Source: Halosolutus halophilus
GTDB taxonomy: Archaea > Halobacteriota > Halobacteria > Halobacteriales > Natrialbaceae
Length of the DNA: 64,000 nt
Direction of reading: 5' to 3'
Assembly: GCF_022869805.1 (NCBI RefSeq)
Contig: NZ_CP094974.1
Location: 2,542,001 to 2,606,000 of the forward strand
In this document: in pieces, positions 3,320-5,953 of the stretch
Layout: each line of letters starts with the position of its first letter
Numbering within the stretch: position 1 is the first letter of the stretch
Translations under genes and position numbers: made by a program
Notes under the pieces: model-generated
Told to the model about the DNA's origin: nothing
The model's input: only the letters and a program-made list of their open reading frames with translations
Databases searched by the model: none

Positions 3320-3337
3320 GCTAAAATATATTTTAGC
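3320..3337. promoter_or_regulatory. 18-bp perfect AT-rich palindrome upstream of proteasome genes
   Basis: GCTAAAATATATTTTAGC is a perfect inverted repeat and the only strongly AT-rich stretch between the SDR stop and the beta-subunit start. It lies about 37 bp before the ATG at 3374, so it probably contains the TATA box; its symmetry could also make it an operator or a bidirectional T-tract terminator. Confidence 0.5.
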
Positions 3338-3373
3338 TAACAGTTAATCCCGCGAGCCCCCTCCTGTCCGGTG

Positions 3374-4139
3374 ATGCACCAGACAGACCACGGCGTGCCC
3401 GTCAGCGGGCCAGGATTCGAATCGATCGACGGTACGGAGTCAAATCGAACCACCGTTCGCTCCCGGACGGACGGACGGACACGCCAGTACGGCCGACACG
3501 AGCGAAATCGTCACGACCGGAACCACGACGCTCGGCGCCGTCGGTGCGGACGGGGTCGTCCTCGCCGCCGACACGCGAGCGAGCCTGGGCGGCCAGTTCG
3601 TGACGAATCGAACGGCTCGAAAGATCGCGCCCGTCGACGATCGGACGGCCGTCGCGTTCGCGGGGAGCGTCAGCGACGCGCAGTCGTTCGTTCGGGGGTT
3701 GCGCGCCGAACTCCGGCTGTACGCGTTACGCCACGACGGGTCGGCGTCGATCGAGACGGCGGCGACGGTCGCCGGCGATCTGGTTCGACGGGGGACCTAC
3801 CGGATCCTCGATCTCGTCCTCGGCGGGGTCGACGACGAACCGGCGGTGTACCAGATCGGCCCCGGCGGCGGTGTCATGCGCACCGAGTACGCGGCGAGTG
3901 GCAGCGGAATGCAACTGGCGTACGGCGCCCTCGAAGGTGCCTACGAGTCCGACCTCCCGCTGGCCGACCTCCGGGAGACCGCTGCCAGAGCCGTTTACAG
4001 CGCGACCGAACGGGATACCGCCAGCGGTGACGGGATGACGATCGCGACGATCACCGGCGACGACCTCGAAATCGAGGTCTTCGACGCCCCAGGGGACGCC
4101 GTCGCGGCGACGACCGTTTCGAGCGCGGAGGGAGCCTGA
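3374..4139 (+). CDS. psmB: Proteasome beta subunit, reading frame interrupted in the propeptide
   Basis: The mature part starts with the processing site G|TTT (Thr1 codon at 3522) and continues TTTLGAVGADGVVLAADTRAS. It has the nucleophile T1, D17, an aligned Lys (K34) and the later SGSGMQLAYG segment, as in a catalytic beta subunit. No ATG, GTG or TTG opens this frame upstream; the frame closes at TGA 3372. ATG 3374 starts a good propeptide-like sequence (MHQTDHGVPVSGPG) in another frame. The two frames meet at a GGAC x4 repeat (3465-3480), and removing one GGAC unit joins them exactly. GTG 3600 would lack Thr1 and be inactive. The stop is 1 nt before the alpha-subunit ATG. Confidence 0.8.
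3465..3480 (+). repeat. GGAC x4 tetranucleotide repeat at the beta-subunit frameshift
   Basis: Four head-to-tail GGAC units lie within the predicted propeptide. With three (or six) units, ATG 3374 is in frame with Thr1 at 3522; with the four present here it is not. This is a classic substrate for slipped-strand copy-number change. Confidence 0.85.
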
Positions 4140-4140
4140 G

Positions 4141-4893
4141 ATGGAGCCGAGCAGTCACCAGCAGGCATACGATCGGGGCAGTACCCTCTTTTCGCCCGAC
4201 GGACGGCTCTACCAGGTCGAGTACGCACGGGAAGCCGTCGAACGGGGGTCACCGAGCGTCGGTGTGACGACCGACGCGGGGGTCGTCCTCGCGGCCCGAA
4301 AGCGACTCCGATCGCCGTTACTCGAGTCGTCGTCCGTCGAGAAGATTCACCTGGTCGACGATCACGTCGCGATCGCGTCGGCGGGACACGCCGCCGACGC
4401 TCGACAGCTCGTCGACGTCGCTCGCCGGACGGGCCAGCAACACCGGGTGCGATACGGGGAGCCGATCGGGATCGAGGCGCTCGCGAACCAGCTCGCCGAT
4501 CGGATCCAGACGAACACCCAGCGCGGTGGCTCGCGTCCGTACGGTGCGGCGTTGCTCGTCGGTGGCGTCGAGCGGCGGACTGATGGCAGCCGACCGCGTC
4601 TGTTCGAGGTCGATCCCAGCGGAACCGCCTACGGCTGGGACGCGGTCGCGATCGGGACCGACGGGGACGAGCGAACCCGGTTCTTCGAGGACCGGATCGG
4701 CGACGCGGCGGGATCGGAACGCGCCGATCGCCGGTGGGGGACCCACACGGCGCTCGAGGCGCTCCAGGCGACGGTCGAGGACACGCTCGACCCGGCCGCG
4801 CTCGACGTCCGCTCGATCGATCCCGAATCGGCAACGGTCGAGAGAATTTCGGATGCCGAGATCGAGGGCCACCTCGAGGAAATCGCCTCGTAG
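4141..4893 (+). CDS. psmA: Proteasome alpha subunit (second paralogue)
   Basis: 250 residues with the alpha-type signature YDRGSTLFSPDGRLYQVEYA at the N-terminus, the H0 helix that gates the 20S barrel, and a normal Ntn core (VGVTTDAGVVLAARKR, GHAADARQLVDVAR). Alpha subunits form the outer rings and dock the PAN/Cdc48 ATPases. The gene follows the beta gene by 1 nt, so this is a dicistron. Main haloarchaeal proteasome genes are usually unlinked, and this sequence is divergent (Arg-rich, with an extra RRTDGSRP loop), so I read it as an accessory pair. Confidence 0.9.
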   Translation: MEPSSHQQAYDRGSTLFSPDGRLYQVEYAREAVERGSPSVGVTTDAGVVLAARKRLRSPLLESSSVEKIHLVDDHVAIASAGHAADARQLVDVARRTGQQHRVRYGEPIGIEALANQLADRIQTNTQRGGSRPYGAALLVGGVERRTDGSRPRLFEVDPSGTAYGWDAVAIGTDGDERTRFFEDRIGDAAGSERADRRWGTHTALEALQATVEDTLDPAALDVRSIDPESATVERISDAEIEGHLEEIAS

Positions 4894-4960: not shown

Positions 4961-5953
4961 CTACGCGTCGGCCGCCGATCGCTGTACGTCGACGACGTCC
5001 ACTCCCGCACCGACGTAGAGTGCGAGGACGTCGTCCCCGAGCGTTGCGGTGACGCGAACTGCGAGTGGCTCCTCCGAGAGGATCGTTTCCGACCACTCGT
5101 GACCGACGTTCCAGATCGGCCGGTTCCGGACGTCCTGCCCGTGTTCGTGGTAGAACGACACGATCGCCGGATGGTCGAGCAACGCGAGCGTCACCGGACA
5201 GCGGACCTCGGTGCCACAGCAGCCACACTCGAATTCGGCCTGGACGTGATCCGTGAGTTCGGCCGGAAGTTCGTCGGCGACGGCGGTCGCGGGCGTGACC
5301 AGCCGGGCGGTCACGTCGCCGCTACACTCCGGACAGACGCCGTCGTGCATGAGCGAGAGCCGATGCCGGTGGTGACGATCGAACGCCTCGGGAAACGTCT
5401 CGCCGTGAGCATCGAGTCCGGACGGCGGAAAGCCGAGTCGGAGCAGCGATCGTTCACACTCGCGACAGGCGATCGTCACGACGTTGTCGGTCGATCGTGC
5501 GGCGAGGGCCTCCCGGTCACAGAACGGACAGGCGTCCGAAAGGGGGACGGGCGGATGATCGACGCGGTGCGTGTACGCACCGGTCGCGATCGCTCTCGCG
5601 ACCTGCAGGCCGGCGTAGGTGAGTTCGTACCCGTCGTCGTGCTTTCGAAGGTAGGGACCGACGAGTTGCTCGAGGTGGTAGGCGAATCCGGCGGACGTGT
5701 CGACGTCCGTTTCCTCGAACAGCGTCGAGAACTGGACGCGTTCCGCGTCGGTGCCCCGGGTCTCCGCCAGCACCGTCTCGAGAATTTCTAGCCGGATCTC
5801 GTTACCGAGCGCCTGAAAGGCGTCGCTGGGTGCCGAGACGCGCTCGGCTCGATCGGGGTTCGCGTCGAGCGGGCCCTGCACCGTCGCGCCCGAGTCGGGA
5901 CCGCCGGCGTCCCCAGATCCGATCGTCGGCTCGTCCACGTCCTCGAACGACAT
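4961..5953 (-). CDS. Winged-helix regulator with zinc ribbons (haloarchaeal ArsR-like)
   Basis: 330 residues. After a disordered N-terminus there is a winged-helix segment (about 43-118: AFQALGNEIRLEILETVL ... LRKHDDGYELTYAGLQVARA) as in ArsR-type regulators. It is followed by one or two treble-clef/zinc-ribbon units with CPFC...CREC and CPEC...CGCC cysteine pairs. It is probably a cytosolic DNA-binding regulator; the ligand is unknown. It converges on the proteasome pair and is followed by moaC on the same strand after a 150-bp gap. Confidence 0.75.
   Translation of the reverse strand: MSFEDVDEPTIGSGDAGGPDSGATVQGPLDANPDRAERVSAPSDAFQALGNEIRLEILETVLAETRGTDAERVQFSTLFEETDVDTSAGFAYHLEQLVGPYLRKHDDGYELTYAGLQVARAIATGAYTHRVDHPPVPLSDACPFCDREALAARSTDNVVTIACRECERSLLRLGFPPSGLDAHGETFPEAFDRHHRHRLSLMHDGVCPECSGDVTARLVTPATAVADELPAELTDHVQAEFECGCCGTEVRCPVTLALLDHPAIVSFYHEHGQDVRNRPIWNVGHEWSETILSEEPLAVRVTATLGDDVLALYVGAGVDVVDVQRSAADA

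Follow-up and report, generated by a model that had tools for sequence, protein, structure and literature searches.

Why does a proteasome beta gene of the haloarchaeon Halosolutus halophilus carry its catalytic threonine (Thr1) in a reading frame that has no start codon, and is the short tetranucleotide repeat at the frame junction a scar or a switch? The window, which is the whole analysed stretch of 64,000 nucleotides, covers 2542001-2606000 of a genome assembled as one contig and contains this gene, here called beta2, directly followed by an alpha subunit gene, alpha2. The most probable answer, to which we give a probability of roughly 0.6, is a recent slip that added four bases to beta2 in an accessory 20S operon, and not an evolved switch.

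Reading frames and identity of beta2

The features of the locus are as follows, in order along the window.

3320-3337, no strand assigned: palindromic promoter element GCTAAAATATATTTTAGC with a TATA box, present in a single genome copy
3372-3374, plus strand: TGA bounding the Thr1 frame on its 5' side (direct reading)
3374-3376, plus strand: ATG that opens the beta2 propeptide in a frame other than that of Thr1; its spacing from the palindrome equals that of the in-frame ATG in relatives
3377-3464, plus strand: first part of the propeptide, read in the ATG frame (nucleotide alignment with Natribaculum puts the 4-nt excess 3' of 3457)
3465-3480, plus strand: (GGAC)4, the tetranucleotide tract to which the +4 excess maps (direct reading, genome-wide count and leader alignment)
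3481-3521, plus strand: last part of the propeptide, in the Thr1 frame and ending TG before Thr1 (HASTADTSEIVTTG, aligned to Natribaculum QTNSDDSRAIVKTG)
3522-4139, plus strand: mature proteasome beta subunit (beta2), intact (matches to PF00227, TIGR03634 and PDB 1j2q)
4127-4131, plus strand: GGAGG, Shine-Dalgarno-like motif of alpha2 (direct reading; relatives have GGAGG(T) or GGGGG(T) there)
4141-4893, plus strand: proteasome alpha subunit (alpha2), 250 amino acids, intact (NF003075, E 3e-83; PF10584)
4961-5953, minus strand: convergent winged-helix-like gene with DUF7347 and DUF7351, adjoining the operon in nearly all orthologous loci

Direct reading of 3372-3522 confirms an earlier note on this DNA, which had placed Thr1 and the mature sequence in a frame without a start codon. 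After the TGA at 3372-3374 this frame contains no ATG, GTG or TTG up to Thr1 (ACC, 3522-3524), and its first start codon, GTG3600, lies inside the mature part and would give a product without Thr1. If an expressible gene is one with a start codon in frame with Thr1, beta2 as sequenced is not expressible. The frame of ATG3374 is a different one and continues to a TGA ending at 4030. The two frames join by simple arithmetic if the (GGAC)4 tract at 3465-3480 loses one unit or gains two, so the earlier statement that three or six copies at this junction would yield a single open reading frame also holds. By homology, ATG3374 is the true start of beta2, since its distance of 52 nt from the start of the palindrome core matches the spacing of about 48-59 nt found for the in-frame ATG of relatives.

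Downstream of the break, the mature frame is free of stops. Its product matches PF00227 over positions 1-189 (E 1e-44), which amounts to homology across the whole domain, and the beta subunit of PDB 1j2q (E 1e-34); the match to TIGR03634 (E 6e-54) scores 182.4 bits and falls below the curated equivalog cut-off of 224 bits. Aligned to archaeal beta subunits, beta2 retains the residues of a T1 peptidase (Thr1, Asp17, Lys33, SGSG and RDTASGDG), the alignment containing the motifs TTTLGAVGADGVVLAAD, RKI, SGSG and RDTASGDG, with one inserted residue shifting Lys33 to Lys34 here. The beta2-alpha2 pair is accessory because canonical alpha and beta subunits are encoded elsewhere in the same genome, and by its sequence beta2 is evidently a diverged accessory paralogue and not the core beta. 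The terminal branch of the mature part measures 0.168 (versus 0.237 for a same-genus relative) and is thus not accelerated. Constraint on the gene either persists or ended only recently, and any loss would be recent, since mature beta2 is undamaged and does not evolve fast. The genome also encodes a third beta-like proteasome gene (L105, G000:C1:4859693-4860328) without the catalytic Thr1, TTTVG being replaced by GILVG; genes of this type occur in four of 125 family genomes, every one without Thr1, and may encode a non-catalytic beta.

The four-base excess and the GGAC tract

Between ATG and Thr1 the leader of beta2 spans 148 nt, as against 144 nt in two Natribaculum species. Four bases were deleted at each leader position in turn, and matches to the 144-nt leader of Natribaculum breve were counted. 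Deletions within 3458 to about 3494 gave about 92-95 matches of 144, with a maximum of 95 at 3480/3481, whereas shuffled leaders in the same test reached at most 60. Deletions at 3428-3446 gave about 84-90 matches only, and combinations of a one-base with a three-base deletion gained at most one match over the single four-base deletion. Ordinary global alignment of the beta2 leader with the Natribaculum leader also opens a four-base gap at the position of the tract. Measured against the two Natribaculum leaders, the excess is therefore one whole unit inside the tract, as in a slippage frameshift of the lacI type, and the earlier proposal that ATG3374 begins the propeptide in a frame one GGAC unit away from that of Thr1 is borne out. 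A frameshift upstream of the tract, at 3428-3446, was also considered. Protein-level comparison with three relatives whose leaders differ in length (G080, G081 and G083) gives a slightly better fit for a junction near 3428, but this candidate was dropped on the nucleotide alignment with the two closest leaders, which points to 3458-3491 and was preferred as the more direct test.

Given the Natribaculum leader of 144 nt, three units would yield a propeptide of 48 residues, equal to that of Natribaculum. The ancestral state was thus presumably in frame and equivalent to three GGAC units, as judged from leader length in this other genus.

Comparison was extended to 37 other loci (29, a further seven, and one in-frame plasmid copy from Halomontanus rarus). 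No further strain of H. halophilus turned up in the genome collection, where each species is represented by a single genome; the matches came from four other species. The relatives named from that search are Natribaculum, Halostagnicola, Natronoglomus and Halovivax, and they place the genome in the Natrialbaceae. The earlier note had asked whether relatives share the same start-less frame, and they do not: at 36 of the 37 loci an in-frame start stands at the position equivalent to ATG3374. The +4 break is a singleton among 38 loci, and the one further broken locus owes its state to an unrelated 1-nt change. An out-of-frame state conserved across these relatives is thereby ruled out, the only other broken gene, in Halostagnicola sp. 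A56 (G019/L018), being shifted in the opposite direction. That accessory beta gene (L018 2816-3010, also L025) has lost one nucleotide in a run of C relative to its sister G018, and in this draft genome, 83% complete, the break is probably a sequencing error.

Propeptide sequence and length differ widely from genus to genus. In three related genomes (G111, G112 and G114) the beta propeptide contains tandem repeats of 18 nt that keep the frame (L101 2046-2109; also L100 and L102), and these repeats mark the propeptide as a region evidently permissive for repeat expansion. Tandem GGAC of at least two units was found in none of the 29 relatives whose propeptides were checked, and no other tetranucleotide repeated at least three times in tandem occurred in the leaders of these relatives.

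Within the 5.06-Mb genome, four consecutive GGAC units occur once, at 3465-3480. Repeat and frame-break statistics rest on a 464-kb genome sample, in which (GGAC)4 is the sole four-unit array among 19 tetranucleotide arrays of at least three units. Under a fifth-order Markov model, a genome would be expected to hold about three tetranucleotide arrays of four units, whatever the unit, and three genomes simulated with this model contained no GGAC array of four units.

Probable slippage and the competing explanations

The preferred reading begins with an ancestral beta2 that would have started at ATG3374 and encoded a 48-residue propeptide followed by Thr1, in an operon consisting of a putative operon-specific palindromic promoter, beta2 and alpha2, with the winged-helix gene convergent behind them. 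Slipped-strand mispairing in the sequenced lineage would then have added one unit to a (GGAC)3-like tract of the propeptide, which is under weak constraint. If the assembled letters represent the real state of the DNA in culture, translation from ATG3374 would now run out of frame to 4030, no standard start would give the Thr1-bearing subunit, and the allele would make no active beta2, or at most leaky amounts. Loss of a single unit would bring the frame back, and such reversion would be expected at an ordinary slippage rate, as at the CTGG hotspot of lacI. That gene carries three CTGG units, and among the mutations that inactivated it in Pseudomonas putida, as earlier in Escherichia coli, gains and losses of CTGG made up the largest class (PMC3485313). 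In both cases a short coding tetranucleotide tract with one unit added gives a four-unit, frameshifted and revertible allele; in lacI, however, slippage was measured under selection, whereas here there is one genome, the unit is GGAC and the three-unit state is deduced. The accident may have hit a dispensable module, because the module is patchily distributed in the family.

An error of sequencing or assembly, by which the culture would in truth have three units and an ordinary working beta2, is unlikely but deserves real weight. The intact, unaccelerated mature beta2 speaks for it, frame-broken singletons with homologues are frequently errors (PMC3711429), and the one-base difference in the C run of the other broken relative (the 83% complete draft) resembles one. 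The usual sequencing errors, however, are single-base indels in homopolymers, and a clean gain of a whole unit in a 16-bp tract favours a biological slip; the genome is, moreover, a single contig with a completeness of 100 and few other frame breaks, a codon-based frame scan of the 464 kb having returned about eight unexplained frame changes in some 395 coding segments. Much less probable is that beta2 has long been a pseudogene and that the GGAC change came second. Loss of the module is evidently tolerated, because it is patchy and missing in many relatives, but a mature frame without a stop, retained catalytic residues, a branch that is not long, and intact alpha2 and regulator-like genes all speak against long decay. 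About as improbable is that recoding (a +1 ribosomal frameshift) or initiation at a codon other than ATG, GTG or TTG still yields a Thr1-bearing beta2. The stretch from 3375 to 3521 is open in both frames, and a single +1 slip anywhere within it would produce full beta2; against this, the leader has no long homopolymer, and a recoding mechanism is not conserved, because the 36 intact relatives begin in frame at the same ATG.

The earlier note had gone further and raised a possible phase switch, and of this proposal the break at the GGAC tract with its excess of one unit stands, while an evolved switch is not supported. That the locus is phase-variable, the tract turning the accessory proteasome on and off at a selected high rate, is improbable. 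The tract does lie exactly at the frame junction, in a cleaved and tolerant propeptide, it is unique in the genome, and the mature gene has been kept intact. Three features define phase variation: heritable change of expression that maps to one locus, reversibility, and switching at some minimal rate without selection (PMC11868660). Four units are, however, very few for a tetranucleotide switch, and the break is a singleton. GeneTack recognises simple sequence repeats as switches where a repeat lies near the frameshift in several homologues (PMC3711429), and tandem GGAC is missing from all 29 relatives checked. Most known phase-variable loci serve surface or restriction-modification functions. 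A review of phase variation defers archaeal loci to future surveys (PMC11868660). As in the mod gene of Haemophilus influenzae, whole-unit changes in a tetranucleotide tract would shift the start in and out of frame, but mod carries over 30 copies of AGTC (PMC3711429), whereas the present tract has four, belongs to an intracellular protease, is not conserved and is known from one genome. High-frequency flipping of (GGAC)n in natural populations, as a heritable on/off control of the accessory proteasome, is improbable as well; if it did occur, protein degradation in an archaeon would be subject to a phase switch of an intracellular protease.

On the preferred reading of recent slippage, little or no active beta2 would be expected. 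The earlier statement that a slip would switch an entire accessory 20S particle is too strong, given that alpha2 has a GGAGG of its own and that canonical alpha and beta are encoded elsewhere. Alpha2 begins one base after the end of beta2, with the GGAGG 9 nt 5' of its ATG, and might still be translated from this Shine-Dalgarno motif and join the core beta. In Haloferax volcanii, alternative alpha subunits yield subtypes of the particle (PMC2910475). The 20S proteasome of that species (alpha1, alpha2 and beta) resembles the present one in its archaeal alpha and beta subunits, its cleaved beta propeptide and its use of alternative subunits (PMC2910475); in H. halophilus, by contrast, an extra beta and an extra alpha share one operon with its own palindromic promoter.

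The accessory module in the Natrialbaceae

The 18-bp palindrome upstream of beta2 occurs once in the genome even when three mismatches are allowed. Of 125 family genomes, 35 contain it, each at a single locus that always lies upstream of an accessory beta, and it is almost invariant among orthologues. Close relatives of the gene at 4961-5953 (E below about 1e-58) are present in all 35 genomes with the palindrome and in only six of the 90 others, usually directly behind the beta-alpha operon. Because the convergent gene and the palindrome occur together across the family genomes, the natural interpretation is that the winged-helix protein would be a dedicated regulator and the palindrome its operator. 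Within the family the module has a patchy distribution, and a second species of the genus lacks it. A 402-kb plasmid of Halomontanus rarus carries the beta-alpha module with its palindrome (L074 3023-4734, the beta being annotated as alpha), which suggests that the module is mobile. Among the papers searched, none dealt with this operon or with phase variation of archaeal proteasomes.

The module, with its palindromic promoter, beta2, alpha2 and convergent winged-helix gene, is a cleaner subject for study than the break itself, and its occurrence in many Natrialbaceae suggests a separately regulated alternative 20S proteasome. If the DNA is correct as sequenced, this strain would be a natural knock-out of beta2 in which alpha2 and the regulator-like gene remain intact, and it would help to probe the role of the accessory proteasome.
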